Below, piece after piece: positions 19,688 through 37,928 of a stretch of DNA of 45,221 nucleotides (position 1 is the first letter of the stretch; each line of letters opens with the position of its first letter). The notes below the pieces were generated by a model. The model did not search any database, was not told where the DNA came from, and was given only the letters and a program-made list of their open reading frames with translations. A program made the translations under genes and the position numbers. The stretch lies in contig JAGVVW010000049.1 of the NCBI GenBank assembly GCA_018304635.1, positions 1 to 45,221 on the forward strand, in the 5' to 3' direction. The stretch comes from Candidatus Aenigmatarchaeota archaeon. GTDB lineage: Archaea > Aenigmatarchaeota > Aenigmatarchaeia > GW2011-AR5 > JACRMX01.

Positions 19688-19721
19688 TTTATAAACATAT
19701 GTAAACAAATACTTCCATATG
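19688..19721 (+). promoter_or_regulatory. TATA box and paired CATATG sites at the HTH-NTase start
   Basis: TTTATAAA (19688-19695) lies about 28 bp before the ATG, so the transcript is probably leaderless. CATATG occurs at 19696-19701 and again at 19716-19721 over the start codon. The 20-bp spacing is two helical turns, as expected for an autoregulatory operator of an HTH antitoxin-like protein. Confidence 0.45.
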
Positions 19722-20252
19722 GAAATAAAATTTGACATATTAAAGCCTTTTTTCGAATGCCCAAACAGGGGATATACAATTCGTGGCATAGCAAAAATTA
19801 CAAAGATAAATCACACAACTGTCCGTAAATACCTGGTTTACTATGCGAAGTCCGGGTTGATTGCAAAGAAACAGGCAGTTCCATACATTACATTTACGGC
19901 AAATACAAATTCCAAAAAATATATTAACTTAAAATTGTATTACAATCTGGAACTGATAAGAGAATCAGGATTAGTTGAAAAAATTGAGAAAGCTTATAAT
20001 TATCCGCCAATTGTGTTGTTTGGCAGTTTTTCAAAAGCTGAAAATAATGAAAACAGTGATATTGATATCTGCATAGTGTCTGACATCAAAAAGGGCATGG
20101 ATTTAAGCGAAATTGAAAAAAAAATGTCTAAAAAGGCAAGCATACGTCAGTTTACAGATAAAGCATGGAAAGAGGCCAAAAAAAAGAACCCTGAGCTTGT
20201 CAACAACATTGCAAATGGAATAACACTGTCCGGCCAGCTGGAGATATTATGA
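19719..20252 (+). CDS. HTH-nucleotidyltransferase fusion (MNT-type, toxin-antitoxin-like)
   Basis: This 177-residue protein has an N-terminal winged helix (residues ~1-65, 'RGIAKITKINHTTVRKYLVY') that can bind DNA. A minimal nucleotidyltransferase domain follows, with 'VLFGSFSKAENNENSDIDIC' (GSX10DXD intact). Such proteins pair with HEPN-domain proteins in archaeal and bacterial toxin-antitoxin-like loci, where the nucleotidyltransferase neutralises the HEPN RNase. The partner frame overlaps by 4 nt (ATGA). The CATATG pair over its own start suggests autoregulation. Confidence 0.7.
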   Translation: MEIKFDILKPFFECPNRGYTIRGIAKITKINHTTVRKYLVYYAKSGLIAKKQAVPYITFTANTNSKKYINLKLYYNLELIRESGLVEKIEKAYNYPPIVLFGSFSKAENNENSDIDICIVSDIKKGMDLSEIEKKMSKKASIRQFTDKAWKEAKKKNPELVNNIANGITLSGQLEIL

Positions 20253-20434
20253 ATTTTCAAAATAGTAAAGTCCTGGAAGAGAGAACAGCGTCCTTAAAGT
20301 TTGATAAATATAGAAAAATAAGAAATAGCATAAATTATTATGGCGATGATGTTGCTCCAGAAACAGTTAAAAAAGCTCTAAAGGAAATCCCGGAAATTAT
20401 AAAGATTTTGACAAGGCATGCCAAGTTTGTATAA
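20249..20434 (+). pseudogene. Short HEPN-domain protein, probably N-terminally truncated
   Basis: This 61-residue product contains 'KFDKYRKIRNSINYYGDDV', the C-terminal signature of HEPN proteins paired with nucleotidyltransferases (RN...YYG). Full family members are roughly 130-150 residues, with about 85 further residues ahead of this motif; these are absent here. It overlaps the HTH-NTase gene (ATGA), so it may still be translated. It is probably a remnant or a minimal form without toxic activity. Confidence 0.5.
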
Positions 20435-20654: not shown

Positions 20655-21389
20655 ATGAGGCTTTTGATTGATCTGAATCCGTCTAAAAATTATGCAAATG
20701 ATCCCAAATATCATAATAAATTGCAGGGTTTCATTTACAAAATTCTTAAGAAATCCGAATACAAGCCTCTCCATGACAAGAAAGGCTGCAAATATTTCTG
20801 CTTTTCCAATATTTTTCCCGGGAAGGAAATGAACGAAGGTGATGTAAAGCATTTTATGATATCGTCCCCGGATAAACTCATGATTCATGTTATAAAGCAG
20901 GGTATAGAAAAAATGAAAGAGATAAACATAGGTGAAATGCAGTTTTCTCTGGAAGCTGTAAAAGAAATAAGTCCCAGAATAAGTGAAAATTGTGTTATAA
21001 AAACTTCAACGCCAATAATAATAAGGATACCACAGTATCGTTATACTGAGTATGGAATAAATTCCCAGTATAGCTGTGTCTTCTGGAAGCCTGAGCACGA
21101 TTTCAACGCATTCCTGAAGCAGCTTTCGGAGAATGTCATCAAAAAATATAACGAGTACAATAAAACAGAGATAAAAGAGCATCCTGTTTTCCAGCAGTTC
21201 GCGTTTGACGGTTCATATCCCATCCATACCATAATAGACCAAAGAGAGCAGATAATGATAGGTAGCTACTGGAAGTTCATATTTGAAGGTATGACCAAGG
21301 AACAACAAGAGCTTTTGCAGTTTGCATTAGACTGCGGCTTTGGTGAGCTGAACAGTTTGGGATTTGGATTTGTGAATGTTATTAAATAA
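20655..21389 (+). CDS. cas6: CRISPR endoribonuclease Cas6
   Basis: This 244-residue protein is of normal Cas6 size. It has the two-ferredoxin-fold layout and the C-terminal Gly-rich loop 'DCGFGELNSLGFGFVNV', the best Cas6 marker. His residues near the N-terminus (around residue 40, PLHDKKG) could act in catalysis. It cuts the CRISPR transcript within the repeat, leaving an 8-nt 5' handle, here expected to be AUUGAAAU from the repeat end. It is transcribed from its own promoter and separated from cas8b by the MntA/HepT-like locus. Confidence 0.85.
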   Translation: MRLLIDLNPSKNYANDPKYHNKLQGFIYKILKKSEYKPLHDKKGCKYFCFSNIFPGKEMNEGDVKHFMISSPDKLMIHVIKQGIEKMKEINIGEMQFSLEAVKEISPRISENCVIKTSTPIIIRIPQYRYTEYGINSQYSCVFWKPEHDFNAFLKQLSENVIKKYNEYNKTEIKEHPVFQQFAFDGSYPIHTIIDQREQIMIGSYWKFIFEGMTKEQQELLQFALDCGFGELNSLGFGFVNVIK

Positions 21390-21450
21390 AAACATTGCAA
21401 TCAAATACCTCATGTATTTTGAATATAATAAAAAAGTATAAGCGGTAAAA

Positions 21451-21744
21451 ATGAAAGATTTAAAACAAATTCAGTCAATATTGTCAAAACATAAAGAAGA
21501 ATTAAGAAGAGAATATGATGTTAAACATATTGGAATATTCGGTTCTTATGTTAGAGGAGAGCAAAAGAAATCAAGCGATATTAATATTTTAGTGGAATTT
21601 GAAAAGCCTATTGGATTTTTCAAGTTTCTTGAATTGGAAGAAAATATTGGCAAGCTCCTTGGAATTAAGGTAGATTTAGTCACTAGAAACGCTTTGAAGC
21701 CAAGAATAGGACAGTACATCCTTAAGGAAGTGGTTGCGGTATGA
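21451..21744 (+). CDS. mntA: MntA-like nucleotidyltransferase antitoxin with altered active site
   Basis: This 97-residue minimal nucleotidyltransferase has 'HIGIFGSYVRGEQKKSSDIN' at residues ~28-45. The family motif is GSX10DXD; here the second Asp is Asn45 (AAT at 21583-21585 instead of the usual GAT), while Asp43 is kept. The rest ('LVEFEKPIGFFKFLELEENI' and 'KVDLVTRNALKPRIG') is canonical. MntA proteins AMPylate the partner HepT toxin to silence it. Loss of one metal-binding Asp should weaken or abolish this. It overlaps the HepT frame by 4 nt. Confidence 0.8.
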   Translation: MKDLKQIQSILSKHKEELRREYDVKHIGIFGSYVRGEQKKSSDINILVEFEKPIGFFKFLELEENIGKLLGIKVDLVTRNALKPRIGQYILKEVVAV

Positions 21745-22103
21745 AACGGGAATATGGAGATTATATTCAGGACATAATCGATTCAATAAAAGAAACTGAG
21801 GAATTTATAGGAAAATTGTCATTTGACGATTTCAAGAAAGATAAAAAAACTGTGAATGCTGTTATACGAAGCCTTGAAATAATGGGCGAAGCTGCAAAGA
21901 AGATTCCTGATGATATCCGTAAGAAACATTTTCAGATCCCTTGGAAAGAGATGGCTGGAATTAGAGATAAGCTTATACACTAATATCACGGAGTTGATAT
22001 TGAAATAATCTGGAAGGTTATAAAGGAAGAGCTACCTCCAGTAAAGCCATTTGTATTAAAACTTTTTAAGGAATTTGAACACAAGAGGAGCGATACGAAA
22101 TGA
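21741..22103 (+). pseudogene. hepT: HepT-like HEPN toxin interrupted by an in-frame stop
   Basis: The frame encodes a DUF86/HepT-like HEPN protein of 120 codons, but codon 81 is TAA (21981-21983). Translation before it ends 'EMAGIRDKLIH', which contains the RX4H RNase motif; after it the same frame continues 'YHGVDIEIIWKVIKEELPPV' to TGA at 22101-22103. The family motif RX4HXY is thus split exactly at X: His80, stop, Tyr82. A single change (for example GAA to TAA) explains it. A truncated 80-residue product would keep the catalytic His but lack the modifiable Tyr and the last helices. Confidence 0.8.
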
Positions 22104-22182
22104 ATACCATTTATTGTAGATAAACACAATCTGCCAAAAGAAATCCAAGAAACACCGCAGGATAATAACAAATCAAAGGGAC

Positions 22183-22344
22183 ATGAAAGAAAATCCTGAT
22201 ACAAACGAAGGAATGACAGTGATAATGAATAAGTTCATGTTCAAAGGCGACTGGAACGAGCAACTACGCTGGACGGAGAAGCACGGAACGAAGGACGATG
22301 TTGAAGTTGTGAGAAGGGAAATGGGAGGAGTTGGAAAATGCTAA
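22183..22344 (+). CDS. Possible small protein or gene remnant before cas8b
   Basis: A 53-codon frame contains 'KFMFKGDWNEQLRWTEKHGT' and overlaps the cas8b start (ATGCTAA). Just upstream, the frame continuing from the hepT remnant (22104-22197) also looks protein-like ('PFIVDKHNLPKEIQET'). The two could be pieces of one decayed gene joined by a frameshift near 22180. No family is recognised. Confidence 0.3.
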   Translation: MKENPDTNEGMTVIMNKFMFKGDWNEQLRWTEKHGTKDDVEVVRREMGGVGKC

Positions 22345-24128
22345 AACAGATGATTGAGTTTGCACAGAAATACCCCGAAAGAGTATGGAATGAAACAAGA
22401 CTTGAAAATCATCTTAAAATGAAGAAAAGAAATTTCTTCTTCGCGGTTTATGCAAGTAACTTAAAATACAAAGAATCTAGTGTTGTCGGCATAGAAAATC
22501 CATTTCCGGAAGAAAAGAATATGTCAAAAAAATTTGTCAATTTGGAAAAATGGATGAAAGAGAATAAAAGATTTATTAAGTATACAGAGTTCTCGATGTA
22601 TAGGAAACCCACAGGAAGCCACAATTCTTGTATAGGAGGTGTATATGGACTTGGAACTGTCTGCCTTTCACACTTTCAACTAGAGGAGTATTCAGAGGAG
22701 TATTCAAAGATAAAACCTATTTTCAGGCTGAAAGATAGGAAACGCCAAAAAAATAAAATTTTCGAAGTTTTCAACAGACGCATTAGTAAACATGTCACAA
22801 ATATAAATGATCAAATAGTGAAAGAAAAAAATATAGACAGGGAGGCACTACGCAAATTGTACGAAGATTTTTTCAATGAATTAATAAAAGAAATGCCCGA
22901 AGAGTCATTAGAACAAATATTCAAACATGAAGTCGTAATTTTCGATGACAAGATATTGGGAATAAAACAAGAAGGAAAAACCCAAAAAAATGAAGACGAA
23001 GAATCATTTGAAATGCCAAAATATTTCAACGTCCAAAAAGTAGAAAAAAAACCATTTGTAATATACTCTAGAACCCGCCCCAATAAACAAAACTTGTTGA
23101 TATCAGAAGACGAACAAAAAAGATTACATGAATTTATGACTAAAATACTTCCTGATACCGGACCGCTTTTCATTCTGCCTTTGGATGAAAAACTTCAGAA
23201 TAAAATGGCTGAAAACATAGCGTTTAACGAAAAAAATTTCTTCAAAACCGTAGAAAATTTATTTGGAGAATATAAAGAAGGGAAATTTGATTTTTATTTT
23301 GTAGACATAAGAAACGAAAAAATTCAATTTTTTGATTATGTTTCCAATTACCACTATTTTTTTCACGATCTTTTTCACGATGTTTTTCCTTTGGGTAGAG
23401 TCAAAAAACAAACACCGTTTGAATTTAATAGAAAGGATCTTAATGAAATTTTTTCTAAGATATTGGGTCAAAAGAACAACATTCTATGCCTTCCGTGGGT
23501 CGATCCTCCAAAAAACATGAATACTTCAAAGAAGTCGGCATATATTCATCTGCGGGAAAAAATGTTCGAAACAATGTATCTTGGAAAAACAGTATTGACA
23601 GAAACGGAAATAAAGAATCTGTGTCTCGTGTTAATTGAAGACAATATAATTAACGAAGATCGCAGTAAAATATGTGATATCTCCAATGATTGCTTAAACT
23701 TTTTTGCAAACTCTTATTTATTTATACTTGGGGGTGAGAATATGAGTATGGACAATTTAATAACAAAAGCAGAAAAAATTGAGAAGCAGGTAATAAATAA
23801 GGAGTTTAAACCGACTGATAAAGAATCTGGATTCTATCTATTGGGAATGCTGCTCAAAAAACTATGCGAGAAATCCGAAACGTCTAATGAAAAATCAAGG
23901 CTTTTACAACCAGTAATAAATACTCACACTTTTATAGGACTTAATAGGGTTGTTGTCACAAAGTTTGTGGAAAAATACGCATATAAAATAGAAGAAAAAG
24001 ACGAAGAAACAGCGGAACTTATGAATAAGGTTCTGCCGTTTCTTGCAGAACAAAACGGAGAAGAATCCATTAAAGATTTCAAACTATGGCTTTATGCCGG
24101 TTTTTTTTCCAATAATCAAAAGGGGTGA
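22338..24128 (+). CDS. cas8b: Cas8b, large subunit of type I-B Cascade
   Basis: This 596-residue protein starts at ATG 22338 after a GGAGGA ribosome-binding site. Size and position directly before cas7, cas5 and cas3 identify it as the Cas8b/Csh1 large subunit, which recognises the PAM and stabilises the crRNA-DNA duplex. Sequence conservation in this family is low. Visible features are mixed helical regions and paired Cys, for example 'SCIGGVYGLGTVCLSHF' and 'DRSKICDISNDCLNFF'. The stop overlaps the region of the cas7 start (GTGA at 24125-24128), giving coupled translation. Confidence 0.8.
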   Translation: MLKQMIEFAQKYPERVWNETRLENHLKMKKRNFFFAVYASNLKYKESSVVGIENPFPEEKNMSKKFVNLEKWMKENKRFIKYTEFSMYRKPTGSHNSCIGGVYGLGTVCLSHFQLEEYSEEYSKIKPIFRLKDRKRQKNKIFEVFNRRISKHVTNINDQIVKEKNIDREALRKLYEDFFNELIKEMPEESLEQIFKHEVVIFDDKILGIKQEGKTQKNEDEESFEMPKYFNVQKVEKKPFVIYSRTRPNKQNLLISEDEQKRLHEFMTKILPDTGPLFILPLDEKLQNKMAENIAFNEKNFFKTVENLFGEYKEGKFDFYFVDIRNEKIQFFDYVSNYHYFFHDLFHDVFPLGRVKKQTPFEFNRKDLNEIFSKILGQKNNILCLPWVDPPKNMNTSKKSAYIHLREKMFETMYLGKTVLTETEIKNLCLVLIEDNIINEDRSKICDISNDCLNFFANSYLFILGGENMSMDNLITKAEKIEKQVINKEFKPTDKESGFYLLGMLLKKLCEKSETSNEKSRLLQPVINTHTFIGLNRVVVTKFVEKYAYKIEEKDEETAELMNKVLPFLAEQNGEESIKDFKLWLYAGFFSNNQKG

Positions 24129-24133
24129 AATGT

Positions 24134-25048
24134 ATGAATAAAAGAAAATTCGAAAATTGGGCAGTAGGCATATCTGTTGTACGTTCTATAAACGGAAATT
24201 TCAATGCAGACATATCAAAGATGCCAAGAACACTTCCAGACAAATTGGGAACGATATATGCGACTGACAAGGCACTCAAATATTGCATTAGAAGCTATTT
24301 AGTGAATGTCAAGAAAGAAAAGATTTTTATGTGGAGAAGACAAAACGAAAAAATAAAACCATTAAACATAGATCAAAATTTTAAAATATTGTTTGAAAAA
24401 AATCCTACGGAAATTGAAAGAGAAGAAATACTTAAAAATCTGCTTAGTTGTGTGGATGTCAGACTTTTTGGATGTACATATGCTGGAAAAAACAATAATA
24501 TTTCAATACACGGAACTACGCAAATTTCATATGGGATAAATGGCATTCAAGAAAATCAGGTTTACTCAAATCAAATATTAAGTCCTTTCCAAAACTTGAA
24601 GAAAGATGATACAACTCAAACAAGTATGGGCGATGAATCAAAGGCTCTTGACGTCTGTTATGTTTATGACTACAATATAAACCCAAATAACATTGGTCCA
24701 GAGAATGCCCAGAGACTGGCTGAGGACGACGTTGAAATATTCAAAGAAGCTTTGTGCAATGGAGTAAATAGTGTCAATACAACAACAAAAATCGGCTCGG
24801 AAACATTGCTAGTAGCTTATGTAGAATTAAGCAAGCCAAAAATGCTGCAAAATCTAAAAAAGCTTATTGAGATATCAAAAAACGAAGATGGAAACCTCAG
24901 TATCGATATAACTAATATGATAAAATACTTAAAGAAATTCGACAGCGACATAGTAAAAACACAAATTTTCTACGAAAAAGAGAAAACAAATCTTGTAAAT
25001 AAAGAAAAATGGAACAAACTTGAAGAAGTAGATTTGTTAGCCAAATAA
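24134..25048 (+). CDS. cas7: Cas7 (Csh2), crRNA-binding backbone of type I-B Cascade
   Basis: The start chosen is ATG 24134, because GGGGTGA (24122-24128) sits at proper spacing; a GTG at 24125 in frame would overlap that site. The 304-residue product has the Cas7/Csh2 features 'VVRSINGNFNADISKMPR' near the N-terminus, 'LLSCVDVRLFGCTYA' and 'TQISYGINGIQENQVYSNQI' in the middle, and 'IGSETLLVAYVELSKP'. Multiple copies form the helical backbone along the crRNA spacer. Confidence 0.85.
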   Translation: MNKRKFENWAVGISVVRSINGNFNADISKMPRTLPDKLGTIYATDKALKYCIRSYLVNVKKEKIFMWRRQNEKIKPLNIDQNFKILFEKNPTEIEREEILKNLLSCVDVRLFGCTYAGKNNNISIHGTTQISYGINGIQENQVYSNQILSPFQNLKKDDTTQTSMGDESKALDVCYVYDYNINPNNIGPENAQRLAEDDVEIFKEALCNGVNSVNTTTKIGSETLLVAYVELSKPKMLQNLKKLIEISKNEDGNLSIDITNMIKYLKKFDSDIVKTQIFYEKEKTNLVNKEKWNKLEEVDLLAK

Positions 25049-25061
25049 ATGGTGTGATCGA

Positions 25062-25814
25062 ATGAATAGAACACTGCAGATTTTAATCAGTTCTGATTTT
25101 GCACTCTTCAAAAAGAATGATAGCAATGAGTTTGCTCTTACATATAATTTCCCTCCAAAACCCCAGATTCTCGGATTATTAGGAGCGATTATTGGTCTTT
25201 CCGGGTACTCTAAAAATGAAAAGAAAGTCGATTTTTATGAAAAACTCAAAAACTTTAAAGTAGCCATAGTACCGTTAGATGAAAATAATCAGCCTGTTAT
25301 AGAGCCACCAAAAAAGACAGTCATAACGTATAACAATTATCATGGTTATGGTAGTATGGAAGAGGGTGGTATATTGCAGATAAGGGAGCAAGTATTGATT
25401 GGACCGAGATACAGAATATTTATTGTAGGAAAGGGAAAATATTACGATGAATTGAAAAAGAAGCTTGAATCACAGGAGTATTTCTATACACCTTACTTAG
25501 GAAAAAATGAGTTTTTTGCTGTGGTTCAATATGAAGGAGAAAAAGAAGCAACTAAAGTAACTGGAGGGACTGAAAAAATTTCAAGTATTTTCCTAAAAGA
25601 CTATGGAAAAATTTTACTTTCAGGATTTGGAGAAAGAAACAGACCACGATTTGTTATTGTTGAAGATTATCCTGTCTCATTTGACACAAATTACTTTTAT
25701 CAAAAAAAGTTTGTCATATATTGTGATGGTGTACAAATCATCAACTATGAAAAAATTGAGAAAGATGGCTTCGAAATATGTAAAATTGAAGATCAGATTC
25801 TTTTTTTCATTTGA
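25062..25814 (+). CDS. cas5: Cas5 (type I-B), crRNA 5'-handle binding subunit
   Basis: This 250-residue protein has the Cas5 N-terminal strand 'TLQILISSDFALFKKND' and 'YNFPPKPQILGLLGAIIGLS', the motif common to Cas5 proteins (P..P...G...A..G), plus 'QIREQVLIGPRYRIFI'. It caps Cascade at the 5' handle of the crRNA. It lies 13 nt after cas7 and 18 nt before cas3. Confidence 0.85.
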   Translation: MNRTLQILISSDFALFKKNDSNEFALTYNFPPKPQILGLLGAIIGLSGYSKNEKKVDFYEKLKNFKVAIVPLDENNQPVIEPPKKTVITYNNYHGYGSMEEGGILQIREQVLIGPRYRIFIVGKGKYYDELKKKLESQEYFYTPYLGKNEFFAVVQYEGEKEATKVTGGTEKISSIFLKDYGKILLSGFGERNRPRFVIVEDYPVSFDTNYFYQKKFVIYCDGVQIINYEKIEKDGFEICKIEDQILFFI

Positions 25815-25832
25815 TTCTAAGGAGTGCCAATT

Positions 25833-28505
25833 ATGACATTAGAAACTTTGATTGCATACGATGAAATATTCGCTAAAGAATTTCTTGAAAAGATATACGC
25901 TCGCAAAGATAAAGACCAGCCTGACAAATATGAAACTCTGGAAGAACATAGTATCAGAACTCTTGCAAAAGCAAATGAAATAATATCTAAACTTCAACTC
26001 GGATCTATTTTGACTAAATTAAACCATAATTTATACAAAGAATTCGAATCTATTGAAGATGAAATAACAGAAGAAGATTTTAACTCAATTATGAAAAAAC
26101 TTCTTGCAACTATTATTTACTTGCATGATATAGGAAAAGTGAATAAACAATATCAAACCAAACGTCTCGGGAATTATCTGAAAGGCATTGATGGTTTTGT
26201 AGATTCTTGGCACAGTGCTTATGGACATATGCTAATAAACCAACTCTTATTTTCTGAAAGACAGAACACCATCTTTAGGAAAAGCCATAAACTTGGATTC
26301 TGCGCTATTGTGCTTACAACAATAGTTAATAGGCATCACACACCATTACTTGACATGGAGATCCCATCTACATATCATAGTAGTAGGAACATTTGGGATA
26401 ATAATGTTAAACACTTAAACGATAACATAAAAGGTCTCGAAAATACATGCAAACAGTCTATTTTATTATTAGATGATTTTGATAAAAAAATCGAAAAGGA
26501 TATTGAAGCCATTTATTCTGACTACTTAGAAGAGATGGGTAAAATTCCCAGTAGTATGTTCTTCATATATAAGCTATGGTACTCTATTCTTGTTCAATCG
26601 GACTGTTTTGCGGCTGAGTTGTTTTCCAAATCAGATTCAAAAATCAATTTCATTGACAAAGAACTGGCAGAAGAACTACAAAATGAATTTCATTCTAGAA
26701 AGTCGTATAACGTTGGGTTAGAAGAAAAGAAGTATCTCTTGAGTTCACCGATAGAAAATATTCAGGACATAGATGATCTTAGAACAAGAATACTCATAGA
26801 AGCATCAAAAACACTTCAAGAAACAATTAAGAAAGATGAAGAAAAAAGAATCTTTTATATAGATGTTCCAACAGGTGGCGGGAAAACGAACATATCAATA
26901 AAGCTTGCACTTGATCTCGTGAAAAGAAAAAATCTCGTTAGAATAAATTATGTGTTTCCATTCATAAACATTATAGAACAAAACCATGAAGAAATAGAAG
27001 CAACGCTTGGTCAGACGAACAAGGATACAGTATCAAAAATATATTCATTTTCAGACTGGGGTATAGAAAATGAAACAGAAGATGAGAATTTTAAACTCGG
27101 AAATCAGAGATTCTTGAATTATCCAGTAAATGTAATAACCAACGTAAATTTTTTCAATATCTTCCTCAAAAGCTCGAAAAAAGCTACAATGAAAACATTG
27201 GAACTGTGCAATAGTGTTGTAATACTCGATGAAATACAATCATTACCAAACAAAAAGTGGATTTATTTTGTGACATTGTTAAATAAAATTTCCAAATTAT
27301 ACAATATATATTTCATTATAATGAGTGCAACCTTACCAGACTTGAAGTTGCTGCTAAGCAAAGATGAGAAGAAAGAATTCGATTCCATTGACCTCATAGA
27401 GCAACCCGAAAGCTATGCTAAACATCGTTTGATGAAACGTGTTACTTACGAAATAAATAAAGATGCAGATCCCGAGCAGGAAATTTGTCAAATTCTTGAT
27501 GTATACAAAAGGCTCCTGACCAATAGAGCTTACAAAAAAATATTGATTGTAGTTAATACAATTTCTGATAGTATAGAAATTTATAAAAAGATCGCAAAAC
27601 CCAAAAGATTCAAAACGTTCCTACTCAACTCTACTACCTTACCATATAAAAGAAAAGAAATAATCAATGAAATAAAATCAGGCGTTAATGTTATCTTAGT
27701 ATCCACCCAGTCTGTTGAAGCTGGAGTAGACATAGATTGTGATGTCGGTATAAGGTCTGATGCTCCCCTTGATTCTATAGAACAAATAGCAGGCAGGGTA
27801 AACAGGAATGGAAAAAAGTCAGTCGAATTGTCTAAGGTTTTTGTCGTTCCATCTAAATCGAAAAAGTATGTTTATTCTGGAGATATTCGTAATATGTATG
27901 ATATATCGGGAAAGAATGGTTTAGATTGTGAAACCCTTTTGATAAACAGGGATTTCAGTTCCTATTATATACAAATAATGGAACGCGCTTTACAAAGAGA
28001 GGATATGACAAAAGCAAACAAAACCGATCTTTTGGAACCTATGAATAATCTTGAATTTGACAAATTAAATCAACAAGATTACATAGAATCTAGAAGTTTC
28101 TCAATTTTCTTACCAGTGAAAATACCTTTAAAATATTTTGTTAACCTCATGAACTTTATTAAAGACAATAATCTTTCAAAAAATAGTTATTTGCATGGAA
28201 ATGACGTTTGGAAATTATATACAAGTAATAAATATGAAAATTTAATCAGAGGTAATGACCTTAAAAAACTTCAGTTGATAGTACAAAACTTCTGCGTTAA
28301 TCTCGTCGAACCACGAAGTTCAAAAAGTAGTTTGAGTTTTAGAGAATTTATAAAAAATACTTTGAAATTTAATTCCGAAAATGATGAAAGTATTCTGATT
28401 GCGGATGAGAACTTTATAAATAAATATTTTGATGAGAACATTGGTTTAGATATTCAAAAACTTAAAACAGATTTCAAAGAATTAGAAGATACGAACATAA
28501 TTTAA
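25833..28505 (+). CDS. cas3: Cas3, HD nuclease-helicase of type I-B
   Basis: The start chosen is ATG 25833, at good distance from AAGGAG (25819-25824); the upstream GTG 25824 overlaps it. The 890-residue protein has an N-terminal HD nuclease: 'EEHSIRTLAKANEI', then 'IIYLHDIGKVNKQY' and 'HSAYGHMLIN'. An SF2 helicase follows: motif I 'VPTGGGKTNISIKLAL', motif II 'VILDEIQSLPNK' (DEIQ), motif III 'IIMSATLPDL', motif V 'VSTQSVEAGVDIDCDVG', motif VI 'IEQIAGRVNRNG'. All catalytic motifs look intact. It unwinds and degrades target DNA after Cascade binding. It is the last gene of the interference operon. Confidence 0.9.
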   Translation: MTLETLIAYDEIFAKEFLEKIYARKDKDQPDKYETLEEHSIRTLAKANEIISKLQLGSILTKLNHNLYKEFESIEDEITEEDFNSIMKKLLATIIYLHDIGKVNKQYQTKRLGNYLKGIDGFVDSWHSAYGHMLINQLLFSERQNTIFRKSHKLGFCAIVLTTIVNRHHTPLLDMEIPSTYHSSRNIWDNNVKHLNDNIKGLENTCKQSILLLDDFDKKIEKDIEAIYSDYLEEMGKIPSSMFFIYKLWYSILVQSDCFAAELFSKSDSKINFIDKELAEELQNEFHSRKSYNVGLEEKKYLLSSPIENIQDIDDLRTRILIEASKTLQETIKKDEEKRIFYIDVPTGGGKTNISIKLALDLVKRKNLVRINYVFPFINIIEQNHEEIEATLGQTNKDTVSKIYSFSDWGIENETEDENFKLGNQRFLNYPVNVITNVNFFNIFLKSSKKATMKTLELCNSVVILDEIQSLPNKKWIYFVTLLNKISKLYNIYFIIMSATLPDLKLLLSKDEKKEFDSIDLIEQPESYAKHRLMKRVTYEINKDADPEQEICQILDVYKRLLTNRAYKKILIVVNTISDSIEIYKKIAKPKRFKTFLLNSTTLPYKRKEIINEIKSGVNVILVSTQSVEAGVDIDCDVGIRSDAPLDSIEQIAGRVNRNGKKSVELSKVFVVPSKSKKYVYSGDIRNMYDISGKNGLDCETLLINRDFSSYYIQIMERALQREDMTKANKTDLLEPMNNLEFDKLNQQDYIESRSFSIFLPVKIPLKYFVNLMNFIKDNNLSKNSYLHGNDVWKLYTSNKYENLIRGNDLKKLQLIVQNFCVNLVEPRSSKSSLSFREFIKNTLKFNSENDESILIADENFINKYFDENIGLDIQKLKTDFKELEDTNII

Positions 28506-28642
28506 TGGAAGCTTCAATACCAAGCGTCAGAAGCAATACTCATATAAAACCCAACAAAAAATTGTCCCAGCTAGACCTTGCCCTAATTCACGCATTCCTC
28601 AAACTCTACGCAAAAGACCAGTTAGTTACAGAGAGTATGTAG
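28505..28642 (+). CDS. Possible 45-residue protein coupled to cas3
   Basis: The ATG overlaps the cas3 stop (TAATG) and the frame runs 45 codons, ending 'LIHAFLKLYAKDQLVTESM'. Composition is protein-like, but no family is recognised. It could be a small accessory gene or the relic of an older gene that stood between cas3 and cas4 before the AbiE pair arrived. Confidence 0.3.
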   Translation: MEASIPSVRSNTHIKPNKKLSQLDLALIHAFLKLYAKDQLVTESM

Positions 28643-28674
28643 AAGATTGATTTCCTATAAATATACATCAAAAC

Positions 28675-28750
28675 TATCAAAAATGATAAGTTTGTTACAT
28701 AAAAATAAGCAATATACATACTTTATTATGCTATAATTATCAAATTTGAT
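28675..28750 (+). promoter_or_regulatory. Two related palindromes upstream of abiEi (candidate AbiEi operators)
   Basis: TATCA-AAAA-TGATA (28675-28688) and ATCAAATTTGAT (28739-28750) share the ATCA...TGAT core. Their centres are 63 bp apart, about six helical turns. The region 28643-28802 is gene-free and AT-rich, with TATA-like stretches. AbiEi antitoxins are known to repress their own promoters through inverted repeats. Binding here is inferred. Confidence 0.5.
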
Positions 28751-28802
28751 TATTTTGTTATAATGAAATAATCTATTTAAAGATGACTGCATAAATAGGA
28801 GT

Positions 28803-29504
28803 ATGAAAGCTATAGAAATATTGGAAGAGGTACGGAAGCTCCCGATGTTTACGATAGGCGACCTATCGAGGATGTTAAGAAAGGATGAAAAATACGTCAG
28901 GATAGTTGCTTACAGGCTTATGAAGAGAGGTCTTATAAGGCAAATAGAGAAAGGAAAATACACTGTTCATGACGATGCTGTCCAGTTTGCTTCTTTCATA
29001 GCGACACCTTCTTACATAAGCTTTTGGACAGCCCTATCTATGTACCATCTTACAGAACAGATACCCATTGATGTTATGGTCGCTGTTTCCAGACCAAAAA
29101 AGACAATAGATTTTTATAGGCAAAGGATAACCTTTACAAAAATCAGGCATTTTTGGGGTTATACAAAACTGCGCCTGCGAGATTTTGACATATTCATTGC
29201 AGAAAAGGAAAAAGCTGTCGTGGATTGCATGCTTGCCAAGAACGTGCCTTTCGACGAGCCGGCAAAAGCGATATTAACCGGTGAACTTGATTATGAAAAA
29301 CTTATTGAATATGCAAAGAAAACAAAAAACGATACGCTTGCCAAGCGCATTGGGTATCTTATTGAAAAAAGAGGCAGCGATGCCAGCAACCTTCTGGATA
29401 TGGTTAACCGCGCATACACACCTCTCAACTGGTCTGTAAAAAAAGAAGGCAGAAAGGATTTTCGCTGGAAGTTAATAATAAATGAGAGTCTGGATGAACT
29501 ATGA
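28803..29504 (+). CDS. abiEi: AbiEi-like antitoxin and transcriptional repressor (type IV toxin-antitoxin)
   Basis: This 233-residue protein has an N-terminal winged helix (residues ~1-60, 'FTIGDLSRMLRKDEKYVRIV' and 'LMKRGLIRQIEKGKY'). The AbiEi body follows: 'PSYISFWTALSMYHLTEQIP', the strand 'RITFTKIRHFWGY', and 'DFDIFIAEKEKAVVDCM'. AbiEi represses its operon and counters the AbiEii nucleotidyltransferase. A TAGGAG-type site precedes the start. It overlaps abiEii by 4 nt (ATGA). Confidence 0.8.
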   Translation: MKAIEILEEVRKLPMFTIGDLSRMLRKDEKYVRIVAYRLMKRGLIRQIEKGKYTVHDDAVQFASFIATPSYISFWTALSMYHLTEQIPIDVMVAVSRPKKTIDFYRQRITFTKIRHFWGYTKLRLRDFDIFIAEKEKAVVDCMLAKNVPFDEPAKAILTGELDYEKLIEYAKKTKNDTLAKRIGYLIEKRGSDASNLLDMVNRAYTPLNWSVKKEGRKDFRWKLIINESLDEL

Positions 29505-30283
29505 TATCTCTGGAAGAGCTGAAAGGAAAGGCGAAAATAAAAGGTCTCAGCCTTGGCAATGCAGAAAAAGATTACCTTATAGACCTTGTACTTCTTTCTA
29601 TATCAAAAAACACAAAGGATGAGCTTGTTTTCAAGGGCGGTACCTGCCTTTACAAATTTTACAATCTGGGAAGATTCAGTGAAGATGCTGATTTCACCGC
29701 AATAAAACCTGTAAACGTTGATAAACTGGCAGAGGACATAATATCGGATTTGAAACAGTTCAATGTAAACTGCAAGTTGCACAGGAAAAAAGAGCCTTTC
29801 AATTCCGTACTTCTTACTATAAGATGCGAAGGGCCTCTATTTAGAGGCACGCCGATGACATATTCGAATGTCAGGATAGACATAAATTTCAAATCCAGCA
29901 TAAATATTGAGCCTTTGCTGAGAAACTTTTCTTCTACCTATCAGGAAATACCGCCTTTCTCCCTGTTAATTATGCAGGAAAATGAGATTGCAGCGGAAAA
30001 GATAAGGGCCATTATGACAAGAAACAAAGTCAGAGATTTATACGATCTGTGGTCAATAATTGTAAAAGGCACTGAAGTAGATAAAATTATTGTATCAAAA
30101 AAATTGGAGTATTACAACACACACTTCGATTATGATGAATTCTCAAAAATTCTGGATAAGAAAAAAGCTCTGTGGGAAAAAGACTTGAAACTGCTTATAA
30201 GAAACCTTCCGGATTTCAACGAAGTTAAAAGTTTCATTCTGAAAGAGGCAAAAAAATGGAAATTCCAAAAAAAGCGTCAATAA
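29501..30283 (+). CDS. abiEii: AbiEii-like nucleotidyltransferase toxin (type IV toxin-antitoxin)
   Basis: This is a 260-residue protein with the AbiEii/MenT nucleotidyltransferase core 'ELVFKGGTCLYKFYNLGRFS' followed by 'EDADFTAI' (GG[ST] motif and Asp-X-Asp), then 'VRIDINFKSS' and 'EIAAEKIRAIMTRNKVRDLY', all intact. Related toxins transfer nucleotides to tRNA ends and halt translation. Its last 28 nt overlap the start of cas4, so toxin and adaptation genes share one message and probably coupled translation. Finding this pair inside a cas locus is unusual. Confidence 0.8.
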   Translation: MISLEELKGKAKIKGLSLGNAEKDYLIDLVLLSISKNTKDELVFKGGTCLYKFYNLGRFSEDADFTAIKPVNVDKLAEDIISDLKQFNVNCKLHRKKEPFNSVLLTIRCEGPLFRGTPMTYSNVRIDINFKSSINIEPLLRNFSSTYQEIPPFSLLIMQENEIAAEKIRAIMTRNKVRDLYDLWSIIVKGTEVDKIIVSKKLEYYNTHFDYDEFSKILDKKKALWEKDLKLLIRNLPDFNEVKSFILKEAKKWKFQKKRQ

Positions 30284-30756
30284 CAGGAGTGCAGGTGGCG
30301 TATTATGTTGTATGCAGGCGGAAGCTATGGCTGTTTACACATCAGATTAGCATGGAGCAGACATCTGAAAAGGTTAAGCTGGGAAAACTGCTTCATGAAA
30401 CTTCTTACAAAAGAAAAACCAAGGAAATAGGAATTGATAACATCAAAATAGATTTCATGGAAAGGAAAGGTGAGATACATGAAATAAAGAAGTCCAGAAA
30501 AATAGAAAAGGCGCACGAATATCAGATGTTTTATTATCTCTATTATCTGAAAAAGAAAGGGATAGTAATAAAGGGTATTATAGATTATCCTCTTCTAAAG
30601 CAGAGAATTGAAGTTCTTCTTACACCAGAAAAAGAAGAAGAAGTTGAAGAGATGCTAAATCATATAAAAGCCATTAGAGAAAAGGAATTGCCTCCTGAGG
30701 CAAAAGTGCTGCCATACTGCAAATCCTGCAGTTATTATAATTTTTGCTGGTGCTGA
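30256..30756 (+). CDS. cas4: Cas4 exonuclease
   Basis: This 166-residue protein starts at ATG 30256 inside the end of abiEii. The four iron-sulphur Cys pattern is seen as one Cys near residue 20 (VVCRRKLWLF) and a C-terminal cluster 'YCKSCSYYNFCWC'. The nuclease core 'KGIIDYPLLKQRIEVLLTPE' and 'AHEYQMFYYLYYLK' (motif IV) is present, with His46 in 'LLHETSY'. Cas4 trims prespacers and sets PAM choice and orientation with Cas1-Cas2. Cas1 starts one base after its stop. Confidence 0.85.
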   Translation: MEIPKKASITGVQVAYYVVCRRKLWLFTHQISMEQTSEKVKLGKLLHETSYKRKTKEIGIDNIKIDFMERKGEIHEIKKSRKIEKAHEYQMFYYLYYLKKKGIVIKGIIDYPLLKQRIEVLLTPEKEEEVEEMLNHIKAIREKELPPEAKVLPYCKSCSYYNFCWC

Positions 30757-30757
30757 T

Positions 30758-31747
30758 ATGGAAAAGAATTACTACATACTGAAAAGTGGCAGGCTGAAGA
30801 GAAAGCAGAATACAATTTATTTTGAAAATGCAGAAGGCAAAAAAGCTATACCTATACACGATATAAATGCCATATTTGCATTCGGTGAGATAGATGTAAA
30901 TTCAAAACTGCTTGTTTTTCTGGCTAAAAACAAGATAGCTGTGCATTTCTTCAGTTATTATGGATTTTATTCAGGCAGTTTTTACCCTAAAGAATATCTT
31001 GTTTCCGGATTCCTTGTTGTAAAGCAGGTTCAGCATTACCTTGAGAAAGAAAAAAGAATTGGACTGGCTAAGGAATTCGTAAAATGCGCAGCTTATAATA
31101 TTCTCCAGAATCTTGCGTATTATAACAGGCAGGGCAAGGATGTCGGAGATGCGATTGCAAAAATAACATATGAAGCACAGTGCATAGATAGTATTCAGGA
31201 AATACCAGAGCTTATGGGCATAGAAGGCAGAATAAGAAATGCATATTACCAGTCTTTTGACAGGATACTGAGGCCTGGATTTGAGTTTGAAAAAAGAACA
31301 AAACGCCCACCGGAAAATATGATAAACTGTCTCGTTTCTTTTGGCAATTCCCTGCTTTACACTATATGCCTTTCAGAAATATATCACACACAGCTCAATG
31401 CTACTGTATCATTCCTGCACGAACCGGGTGAAAGAAGATTTTCTCTCAGCCTGGACATAAGCGAAATATTCAAGCCTATAATAGTAGACAGGGTCATTTT
31501 CAACCTCATCAATAACAGACTGATAAAAGAGGAGCATTTTGATGACAAGCTGAATTTCTGCCACCTTAATGAAGCAGGGAGAAGAATTTTTATTTCTGAA
31601 TTTGATGAAAAGCTGAAAACTACAATAAAACACAAAAAACTGAAAAGAAAAGTATCTTACAAAACACTAATAAAGCTGGAATGCTATAAGATAATAAAGC
31701 ATCTTATAGAAGGTCAGAAATATGAGGGCTTCAGGATGTGGTGGTAA
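30758..31747 (+). CDS. cas1: Cas1 integrase
   Basis: This 329-residue protein has the type I-B Cas1 layout: an N-terminal beta domain ('YYILKSGRLKRKQNTIYFEN') and a helical catalytic domain. Metal-binding residues visible are Glu156 (ELMGIEGRIRNAYY), His221 (SFLHEPGERRFSL) and Asp233 (SLDISEIFKP). It inserts new spacers at the leader end of the array with Cas2. The stop TAA at 31745-31747 is followed at once by the cas2 frame. Confidence 0.92.
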   Translation: MEKNYYILKSGRLKRKQNTIYFENAEGKKAIPIHDINAIFAFGEIDVNSKLLVFLAKNKIAVHFFSYYGFYSGSFYPKEYLVSGFLVVKQVQHYLEKEKRIGLAKEFVKCAAYNILQNLAYYNRQGKDVGDAIAKITYEAQCIDSIQEIPELMGIEGRIRNAYYQSFDRILRPGFEFEKRTKRPPENMINCLVSFGNSLLYTICLSEIYHTQLNATVSFLHEPGERRFSLSLDISEIFKPIIVDRVIFNLINNRLIKEEHFDDKLNFCHLNEAGRRIFISEFDEKLKTTIKHKKLKRKVSYKTLIKLECYKIIKHLIEGQKYEGFRMWW

Positions 31748-32014
31748 CTGACATATGTTATAATTGTTTATGATATAAGTGTAGAAAGGGTCAATAAGGT
31801 GTGTCAGTTTCTGAGAACTCATCTCAACTGGGTGCAGAACTCTGTTTTCGAAGGCGAATTGTCAGAAAGCGGTTTGGAAAAAATAAGACATGGCCTGAAA
31901 AGGTTGATAAACAAGGATGTTGATTCGGTACTGTTTTATATATTTTCCAGCCGCAAACTTGTAAAAAGGGAGCAAGTGGGTATTGAGAAAAACACGCTTT
32001 CTACACTGATTTGA
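31748..32014 (+). CDS. cas2: Cas2, with a non-standard start codon (CTG)
   Basis: The frame immediately after the cas1 stop reads CTG ACA TAT GTT and continues 'YVIIVYDISVERVNKVCQFL', the Cas2 N-terminal ferredoxin strand with the conserved Asp of VYD. It ends after 88 residues, the normal Cas2 length. No ATG, GTG or TTG lies ahead of the core strand; the ATG at 31755 is out of frame, and the GTG at 31799 would delete the first strand and the Asp. A GGTGGT ribosome-binding site overlaps the cas1 end. CTG initiation, or in-frame readthrough of the cas1 TAA, are the options. Confidence 0.85.
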   Translation: MTYVIIVYDISVERVNKVCQFLRTHLNWVQNSVFEGELSESGLEKIRHGLKRLINKDVDSVLFYIFSSRKLVKREQVGIEKNTLSTLI

Positions 32015-32131: not shown

Positions 32132-32871
32132 GTTTGAAGAGGACTAGTGTAGTATTGAAATATAGCATCAGAAAAAAACGTTTTGAAAATGTATCATGAG
32201 TTTGAAGAGGACTAGTGTAGTATTGAAATGGATAATGCATTTCTTTAATTTGAAAAGAGAAAATATGTTTGAAGAGGACTAGTGTAGTATTGAAATACAA
32301 AAGAAATATTTATATCTCGGTGCTGTTATTTGTTTGAAGAGGACTAGTGTAGTATTGAAATTTATGCTATTTAGCATTATACATGCTAAACTTTCTGGTT
32401 TGAAGAGGACTAGTGTAGTATTGAAATATGGAATTGTATGCCGAAGAAATTGTGAAATTTCAGGGTTTGAAGAGGACTAGTGTAGTATTGAAATTTGTTT
32501 TCTGCGTTTCCTGTCTTATCTTTTTCATTATGTTTGAAGAGGACTAGTGTAGTATTGAAATTTATATCGTTAAGTATCCATTCATGCTTACATCTCTGTT
32601 TGAAGAGGACTAGTGTAGTATTGAAATCTCAAATTTGCCCTGCTCAGATTTGCCCTGCTCAGATGTTTGAAGAGGACTAGTGTAGTATTGAAATTTGACA
32701 TATCATAACAAAAATCCCGCCGACACTTACGTTTGAAGAGGACTAGTGTAGTATTGAAATCGATTTGTTTCACCAAACCCCTGAATTTAAATCTTGTTTG
32801 AAGAGGACTAGTGTAGTATTGAAATAGCGCTGCAATTTCTGAAACAGCATTGCTACTGTTGTTTGAAGAGG
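32132..32871 (+). CRISPR. CRISPR array: 11 full repeats plus a truncated terminal repeat, 11 spacers
   Basis: The repeat is 30 bp, beginning GTTTGAAGAG and ending GTATTGAAAT, identical in all 11 full copies (starts at 32132, 32200, 32267, 32332, 32398, 32465, 32532, 32598, 32665, 32731, 32796). The final copy at 32861 keeps only GTTTGAAGAGG before diverging. Spacers are 35-38 bp. The ATTGAAAT end is typical of type I-B repeats. Spacer 8 (32628-32664) contains a 15-bp tandem duplication, ATTTGCCCTGCTCAG. Spacer 4 (32362-32397) contains ATGCTA/TAGCAT inverted repeats. Confidence 0.97.
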
Positions 32872-36707: not shown

Positions 36708-37928
36708 CTATTCCCTTTCCATTTTCGATAAGCCCCATTTTTCCAGTGCCAGTCTGAGAGATGTGTGATTTTCAGCGTATTCAGTCAGTGATATTTTTTT
36801 CATTCCTGCTTCCACAGCCTGCATCATTGCTTCAGCTCCGTGTATTGTTCCTTTTGGATGGCTGTGAATTCCGCCACCAGCTTGTATAATAATATTCCGG
36901 CCAAACATTTTAATCAATTCTGGAGCATGCGTCGGGCATAAACCACCAGAACAGACAGCAAAACATGACTTTATTCCACGCCATCTATCCTGCAATGCGT
37001 GTACTGAATCAAAAACACCTTTACCACCCTGCATTTTTCCAATAACAGTTCCTGTATGGAGCTGATCAATTCCGATCATTCTGCAGATTTTTGCTATTAC
37101 TCTCATTGCAATGCCATGATTTTCCATTCTTGTGAATGCACCATGGCCTGCTCGGTGTGCATGAATCGGAATCTTTACATGATCCCGTACAGTCTGTAGC
37201 CCTGCCCATCCGGTTGTTACAACATCAATCATGATATATTTTCCACCATGATCCTCAACAAATTTTGCCCGTTTTATCATTTCATTTGTTTCAGCAGTAA
37301 TGTTAGGCATGTAAGCTTTCTTGAATCCTGTTTCATTTTCAGCCCGCTGGCACATCATAAGTGTATTGAAAACCCTCTTCTGAAATTTGTTGAATTTCTG
37401 GTTTGAGAGGTTTTCATCATCCTTGACAATGTCACACCCGCCTATCCATGCCTGATAAGCTCTTTCAGCATGCTGTTCAGTGTTTAATCCAAGCTTTGGC
37501 TTTATTATTGTTCCTATCAGTGGCCTTTTTCTGATCTTCATTATTTTTCTTATGCCTTTAATGCCATATGCAGGACCTTTAAACGCTGTATAATACGATC
37601 TCGGAAATTCAATATCTTCTAGCCGCAGATTCTTTACATTTTTCATGTCAAAAACATTTCCAGCAACACTACTCATAAGCTGCGGAATATTATTTTTTTC
37701 AAAAAGAGTAATAGGATAAGCTATCTTAAACATCTGGCCGCGACGTTCGAAAATAAATGCACTTATTTTCTTTACATAGTTCGTGTCAGGAACATCAGAC
37801 CATGTTCCTGTGCTGGACTCAGCAGCAACAGCTGCTGCAGCATTTGTTGTTGGCGGGTCAATCCTGAATGTACAAACAACACTGTTCACAGGAACTTTTC
37901 CCAAAGAAACATAATCATCATATTGCAT
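36708..37928 (-). CDS. rbcL: RuBisCO large subunit, form III type
   Basis: This 406-residue protein has all key RuBisCO residues visible: Glu37 and TGTW in 'AAESSTGTW', Asn91 (AGNVFDMK), Lys143 in 'IIKPKLGL', the carbamylated Lys169 with Asp171 and Glu172 in 'GGCDIVKDDENLS', the His-rich 'IPIHAHRAGHGAF', loop-6 Lys in 'TVIGKMQGG', 'CSGGLCPTHAPELI' and 'QAGGGIHSHPKG'. In archaea form III acts in AMP/nucleoside degradation (ribulose 1,5-bisphosphate plus CO2 to 3-phosphoglycerate). A TATA box lies 24 bp before the ATG inside a perfect inverted repeat, pointing to a leaderless, repressed transcript. Confidence 0.92.
   Translation of the reverse strand: MQYDDYVSLGKVPVNSVVCTFRIDPPTTNAAAAVAAESSTGTWSDVPDTNYVKKISAFIFERRGQMFKIAYPITLFEKNNIPQLMSSVAGNVFDMKNVKNLRLEDIEFPRSYYTAFKGPAYGIKGIRKIMKIRKRPLIGTIIKPKLGLNTEQHAERAYQAWIGGCDIVKDDENLSNQKFNKFQKRVFNTLMMCQRAENETGFKKAYMPNITAETNEMIKRAKFVEDHGGKYIMIDVVTTGWAGLQTVRDHVKIPIHAHRAGHGAFTRMENHGIAMRVIAKICRMIGIDQLHTGTVIGKMQGGKGVFDSVHALQDRWRGIKSCFAVCSGGLCPTHAPELIKMFGRNIIIQAGGGIHSHPKGTIHGAEAMMQAVEAGMKKISLTEYAENHTSLRLALEKWGLSKMERE

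Follow-up and report, generated by a model that had tools for sequence, protein, structure and literature searches.

Organization of the locus

The 45,221-nt stretch of archaeal DNA analysed here, referred to as the window, carries a type I-B CRISPR-Cas locus in which an intact pair of toxin-antitoxin (TA) genes of the AbiE family, abiEi-abiEii, is inserted between cas3 and cas4 (Table 1). It is considered marginally probable that the abiE promoter, autoregulated by AbiEi, drives cas4 and, in this genome, probably cas1-cas2 too. The locus bears on the control of spacer acquisition and on a possible link of acquisition to dormancy: here the gain of new immunity may be tied to a switch that arrests growth.

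The source genome is a 1.08 Mb archaeal assembly of 52 contigs and was judged from its relatives to belong to the DPANN archaea, Aenigmatarchaeota. The locus was assigned to type I-B as cas6, cas8b, cas7, cas5, cas3, cas4, cas1b, cas2 and an array were all found, the repeats being 30 nt long and ending in ATTGAAAT. The catalytic residues and the four cysteines of Cas4 were present in an alignment. The gene coordinates and junctions given in a first-pass annotation of this DNA were confirmed: abiEi and abiEii overlap by 4 nt, abiEii and cas4 by 28 nt, cas4 and cas1 are spaced by 1 nt, and the cas2 frame starts directly behind the cas1 stop codon.

Identity of the AbiE pair

Profile and motif comparisons identify both AbiEi and AbiEii as genuine members of their families; for AbiEi the predicted structure agrees, and the N-terminal winged helix and the AbiEi C-terminal domain are present. 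The FKGG..DxD and RDxYD motifs of AbiEii are intact (the expected G[GS]..DxD and the downstream motifs are present). The Pfam AbiEi_4 match of the window AbiEi fell under the cut-off, and 9 of 11 homologues matched the family. The protein was modelled with AlphaFold (mean predicted local distance difference test score 92); when the model was compared with the PDB, the top matches were both chains of Streptococcus agalactiae AbiEi (6y8q; E 5e-7 and 1e-6, probability 1.00, TM score 0.46-0.55), whereas a phmmer search of AbiEi against PDB sequences gave no match. No relative of the window AbiEii was found in the phage records searched, and in the plasmid records its relatives were distant only (<60%).

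Conservation in a second family

The first-pass annotation had proposed that the order abiEi-abiEii-cas4-cas1-cas2 be sought in related genomes. It was found in genome G015 (JACQID010000006.1), from another family within the same order, and so is not confined to one genome; the locus there reads cas6-cas8b-cas7-cas5-cas3-abiEi-abiEii-cas4-cas1-cas2, followed by an array. Its 4-nt (abiEi/abiEii) and 28-nt (abiEii/cas4) overlaps are identical to those of the window, and since both order and the 28-nt overlap match in a second family, chance is not the explanation. The sequence GAGGC(A/C)AAAAAATGGA, which comprises a Shine-Dalgarno-like motif and the cas4 start, was kept in the window, G015 and a third genome, G001, while also encoding the C-terminus of AbiEii.

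Identity between the window and G015 was 61% for AbiEi, 67% for AbiEii, 55-79% for the cas genes and 55% for glutamyl-tRNA synthetase. As both AbiE values fall inside the range of the cas genes, and glutamyl-tRNA synthetase is less conserved than most of the block, abiE has moved or descended together with the cas block.

Promoter- and operator-like elements

The region before abiEi had been described as gene-free with two palindromes, and this was borne out: no open reading frame (ORF) of >=60 aa was present in the interval from cas3 to abiEi (28506-28802) and both palindromes were located. Their core, ATCAAAWWTGAT, gave three matches where 0.34 were expected (one of the two sites counts on both strands), and none of 100 shuffled sequences reached three. 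The core sites are spaced by 63 bp in the window and by 62 bp in G015 and G001. The proximal palindrome is shared by the solitary abiE of G024, and the element is thus assigned to AbiE. The palindromes make up a candidate AbiEi-type operator, as first proposed, and a putative archaeal TATA box is conserved as well; the distance of 27-28 nt from TTTAAA to the abiEi ATG predicts a leaderless mRNA.

AbiEi is known to repress its own promoter (PMC3985639; PMC7319586), and its relative Rv2827c has two tandem pairs of inverted repeats upstream (PMC7319586). The abiEi/abiEii overlap and the conserved palindromes expected of an AbiE-type operon were both seen, the operon here exceeding two genes; AbiEi binding and repression are predicted. 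No near-perfect second operator was found elsewhere in the window, and there is thus no sign of AbiEi control over the interference operon.

When the 60 nt ahead of cas4 were compared in the window, G015 and G001, no conserved TATA-like element was detected. Promoter-like elements are conserved ahead of abiEi and none of TATA type just ahead of cas4, which was counted in favour of a shared promoter. The description of abiEi to cas2 as one operon-like unit likewise held, with overlaps conserved in G015.

Proposed mechanism

A complete AbiE operon, bringing an archaeal promoter under its own control, would have been built into the I-B locus between cas3 and cas4. A single abiEi-abiEii-cas4-cas1-cas2 mRNA would be made from the AbiE promoter (cas1-cas2 probably included in this genome), and translation of cas4 would be coupled to that of abiEii through the 28-nt overlap. 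AbiEi bound at both palindromes would hold down expression of the toxin as well as of the genes for spacer acquisition; a drop in AbiEi, or toxin activity itself, would lift them together, so that slow growth and spacer acquisition would coincide. Such co-induction is plausible because AbiEii expression increases the abiE antitoxin transcript made from the Serratia chromosome (PMC7725324), and because in a haloarchaeal I-B locus the creTA region of the cas operon provides the promoter for the downstream cas genes, its removal cutting their transcripts by 72-93% (PMC9458426). The earlier wording, that adaptation is induced when the antitoxin is "released", does not fit AbiE as it is known, since AbiEi is a type IV antitoxin and no binding takes place between it and the toxin AbiEii (PMC3985639).

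Several observations weigh against a shared promoter. In G015 cas4 and cas1 are separated by a 140-nt gap with an AT-rich possible separate promoter, from which cas1-cas2 may be expressed independently, so that only the abiE-cas4 coupling is conserved for sure. A promoter may also lie deep inside abiEii. An intact cas4-cas1-cas2 with abiE immediately ahead was found at two loci only, possibly of one origin; the majority of AbiE loci in these archaea lie away from cas genes; and in several I-B loci cas4 is not preceded by AbiE. The I-B locus of G005 is split across contigs.

In a broader form of the proposal, derepression of AbiEi by infection or stress would turn on the growth-arrest toxin and Cas4-Cas1-Cas2 from one mRNA, cells would halt growth while acquiring a spacer, and the slot before cas4 would be a repeated entry point for toxin switches (AbiE, wHTH-DUF6036, HEPN; described below) in DPANN archaea. 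This wider scheme is put forward tentatively and is regarded as unlikely as a whole.

Distribution of abiE beside cas genes

An AbiEii alignment was scanned against 84,980 species genomes and the 80 best loci were retained. Cas genes or their remnants lay beside abiE in five of those 80, namely the G015 and G001 records, L077, L090 (in G195) and, after a closer look, L110 (in G196). When 123 distinct AbiEii loci were scanned for cas4 directly downstream, the window, G015, G001, G195 and G196 were recovered with one weak false match (L024, where the cas4-like match behind abiE turned out to be another gene). L077, from Woesearchaeota, carries abiE followed by a pair formed by a winged helix-turn-helix (wHTH) gene and a DUF6036 nucleotidyltransferase (NTase) gene, between two cas4-cas1 copies. 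AbiE also adjoins cas4, intact or as a remnant, on other AbiEii branches in Woesearchaeota. In a quick AbiEii tree, with SH-aLRT (Shimodaira-Hasegawa-like approximate likelihood ratio test) support only, abiE-cas4 loci fell on at least three well separated branches and L077 on a fourth; the linkages may reflect either repeated joining or an old linkage followed by losses. In a survey of archaeal AbiE, the family was enriched in DPANN archaea, where CRISPR-Cas is scarce (PMC12988326).

It is possible, though rather unlikely, that abiE is a further defence gene which came to lie between cas3 and cas4 and is a mere neighbour, with cas4-cas1-cas2 on their own or the cas3 promoter and no functional coupling. 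Many AbiE homologues of these archaea are indeed solitary, and other toxin-like genes precede cas4 elsewhere (wHTH-DUF6036 in G612, HEPN in G202). The window also has two MNT/HEPN pairs near cas6; the one between cas6 and cas8b is absent from G015, and in the window it has a HepT that looks broken, as would be expected of passing TA genes, so that not every TA gene of this locus has been kept. Mere neighbourhood accounts poorly for an order and exact overlap maintained in another family, or for promoter-like elements that sit ahead of abiEi and not of cas4. By a rough estimate, random placement would put abiE ahead of cas4 at about 1 in 2200 per locus, or 0.06 expected among the 123, a figure that clustering of defence genes would increase; AbiE was found directly ahead of cas4 or a cas4 stump on at least three AbiEii branches.

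Deletion scars

Two of these loci (G001, G195), and probably a third (G196), keep abiE ahead of no more than the first 30-50 codons of cas4, and the remaining type I-B cas genes are gone; in G001 and G195 the stump leads into a single terminal CRISPR repeat. In G001, a strong case, abiEi-abiEii are intact with the 28-nt overlap, cas4 halts after 33 codons and the stump joins directly TAGTGTAGTATTGAAAT, the last 17 nt of the window CRISPR repeat. In G195 (L090), also a strong case, abiE is intact, cas4 begins through a 4-nt ATGA overlap and ends after ~50 codons, and the stump runs into GTTTGAATAGAACTATTGTAGGATTGAAAT, which is identical to the window repeat at 26 of 30 positions; shuffled sequence never came under 8 mismatches. 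G196 (L110) is a probable case: the cas4 start there is degraded and lies across the 3' end of abiEii, its similarity is weak (E ~0.01 in a six-frame search) and no repeat is left. The toxin motifs of AbiEii are intact in the scarred loci. No relative of the window Cas3 was found in G001, G195 or G196, and no Cas1 in G195 or G196; G001 had a distant Cas1 only (25%), beside a Cas14/TnpB-like gene. These absences rest on metagenome-assembled genomes, for which incompleteness is a caveat. The G001 contig (L032, 2349-5897) carries cas1-cas2-cas4 followed by a gene for a 560-aa TnpB/Cas14-like protein, ~6 kb from the abiE scar.

A fourth scar of the same kind was found in G597 (L224, 1487-1800), where a cas4 stump and one CRISPR repeat lie beside the gene for archaeal initiation factor 2 gamma (aIF2-gamma) without abiE. 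abiE is thus able to persist alone after CRISPR loss, which fits a self-maintaining TA system, and G597 shows that the pattern is not universal. The scars are natural evidence on how a TA pair inside a CRISPR locus affects the mode in which the locus is lost. The first-pass annotation had suggested that a cell losing the adaptation genes would be penalized by the toxin. This is contradicted: cas4 is downstream of both TA genes, and G001, G195 and probably G196 have lost cas1-cas2 and most of cas4 with abiE intact. On this reading AbiE is a self-preserving TA system, and the genes downstream are not protected by it.

The scars also bear on a guarding role, in which AbiE would stabilize the CRISPR-Cas locus: if the whole locus were deleted in one step, the antitoxin would go with it, and post-segregational growth arrest would select against such deletions. 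AbiE stabilizes plasmids (PMC3985639) and is present on haloarchaeal plasmids, its position in mid-locus means that one-step loss of the entire locus must take abiE, and the surviving deletions (G001, G195, probably G196) spare abiE with its toxin motifs. Those same deletions show that CRISPR-Cas was lost on both flanks of abiE anyway, so that any protection would be weak; loss of cas4-cas1-cas2 alone would go unpunished because both TA genes are upstream; and the G597 scar has no abiE at all. A guarding role is considered distinctly unlikely.

Relation to known systems

The nearest precedent is CreTA, from Haloarcula and others, which is likewise a TA module within an archaeal type I-B cas operon whose TA region is the promoter for the downstream cas genes (PMC9458426). 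CreTA consists of two RNAs, lies in the cas6-cas8 gap and is kept repressed by Cascade by way of degenerate repeats, whereas the window AbiE consists of two proteins encoded ahead of cas4, has no ectopic repeat and outlasts the loss of Cascade. A guard of the CreTA kind, in which the CRISPR effector would use an ectopic crRNA-like RNA to keep the toxin silent and loss of Cascade would free it, has its parallel in the CreTA modules of archaeal type I-B cas operons (PMC9458426), but is highly improbable and already contradicted: outside the array no site in the window comes closer to the repeat than 11 mismatches in 30, the toxin as well as the antitoxin is encoded by a protein gene of known type, and AbiE is retained in genomes that lack a type I-B Cas1 or Cas3.

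The pair shares with the AbiE systems of S. agalactiae, Serratia and M. tuberculosis (Rv2827c-Rv2826c) the two gene families and their order, the AbiEi fold, inverted repeats before abiEi and the NTase motifs. It differs in that the known operons are bicistronic and this unit continues into cas4-cas1-cas2, and in having an archaeal TATA promoter and two palindromes ~62 bp apart. Compared with type I-B CRISPR-Cas (cas6-cas8b-cas7-cas5-cas3-cas4-cas1-cas2), all genes, their order and the 30-nt repeats are alike; the window adds abiEi-abiEii between cas3 and cas4 and MNT-HepT between cas6 and cas8b.

The arrangement had been put forward as previously undescribed. In the open-licence literature searched, no description was found of AbiE within a cas operon or leading adaptation genes, and AbiE is unmentioned in a survey of cas4 neighbourhoods (PMC5704561) and in the 2025 CRISPR classification. 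The presence of TA genes within CRISPR loci is in itself known (CreTA, PMC9458426). That immunity is coupled to dormancy was proposed by Makarova et al. (2012) in "Live virus-free or die", which predicts that toxins are encoded with immunity genes and that dormancy buys time for adaptation (PMC3506569); the candidates there were Cas2, HEPN/COG1517 and similar domains, and AbiE was unmentioned. That hypothesis has few concrete test cases, and this locus would supply a defined one, with a single promoter, a known repressor type, a toxin and three acquisition genes.

Other toxin-like genes and neighbouring features

The slot between cas3 and cas4 in DPANN archaea appears, by comparison of these loci, to have taken up TA-like genes repeatedly (AbiE, wHTH-DUF6036, HEPN). 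In G612 (L223, 1498-3453) a wHTH regulator and a DUF6036 NTase precede cas4 with a 4-nt overlap, and the same pair lies ahead of the second cas4 in L077. In G202 (L184, 1997-2599) a Csm6-type HEPN gene with no CARF domain ends 5 nt before cas4, and in G561 cas3 is directly ahead of cas4.

Table 1. Features of the type I-B locus and its AbiE pair in the window.
Feature	Coordinates	Strand	Evidence or remarks
cas6, (MNT-HepT pair), cas8b, cas7, cas5	20655..25814	+	
cas3, final gene of the upstream interference block	25824..28505	+	TIGR01587 2e-44
Distal operator-like palindrome, TATCAAAAATGATAAG	28675..28690	+	counterparts before abiEi in G015, G001, G196
Proximal operator-like palindrome, TTATCAAATTTGATTA	28737..28752	+	kept in G015, G001 and solitary abiE of G024; similar palindromes in L077, L110
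Putative archaeal TATA box, TATTTAAA	28774..28781	+	TTTAAA at -27/-28 from abiEi ATG in window, G015, G001, G024
abiEi, wHTH antitoxin, putative autorepressor, 233 aa	28803..29504	+	PADLOC AbiEi 6e-45
abiEii, DUF1814 nucleotidyltransferase toxin (predicted), 260 aa	29501..30283	+	Pfam PF08843 (AbiEii) 7e-29; PADLOC 1e-63
abiEii/cas4 overlap, 28 nt, GAGGC Shine-Dalgarno-like motif ahead inside abiEii	30256..30283	+	
cas4 (type I-B, Cas4b)	30256..30756	+	PF01930 1e-57; Cas4b 1e-63
cas1 (Cas1b)	30758..31747	+	TIGR03641 4e-146
cas2 (Cas2b), frame opens with CTG immediately 3' of cas1 stop	31748..32014	+	Cas2b 6e-30
CRISPR array, 11 identical 30-nt repeats, 10 spacers of 35-38 nt, degenerate terminal repeat at 32861	32132..32825	+	

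The array and the MNT-HepT pair that separates cas6 from cas8b were absent from the first-pass annotation, as was an irregularity at the start of cas2: its expected N-terminus (31748-31800) has no ATG, GTG or TTG and the frame begins CTG-ACA, the corresponding codon being ATG in G015 and TTG in G202.

The HepT gene of this MNT-HepT pair (21741-21983) has an in-frame TAA just past RDKLIH at the active-site motif. The frame behind the stop keeps HepT-like sequence; the toxin looks broken and its MNT partner is intact. Upstream of cas6 (19719-20434) are a second MNT gene, with a helix-turn-helix (PDC-M05A-like), and a 61-aa ORF overlapping its end. In the duplicated cas4-cas1 segment of L077 (4910-5653), a cas1 copy is truncated to ~140 codons and continues in the same frame into an MNT-type nucleotidyltransferase domain. 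At 36708-37928, downstream of the array in the window, lies an archaeal gene for the large subunit of ribulose-1,5-bisphosphate carboxylase/oxygenase (RuBisCO).

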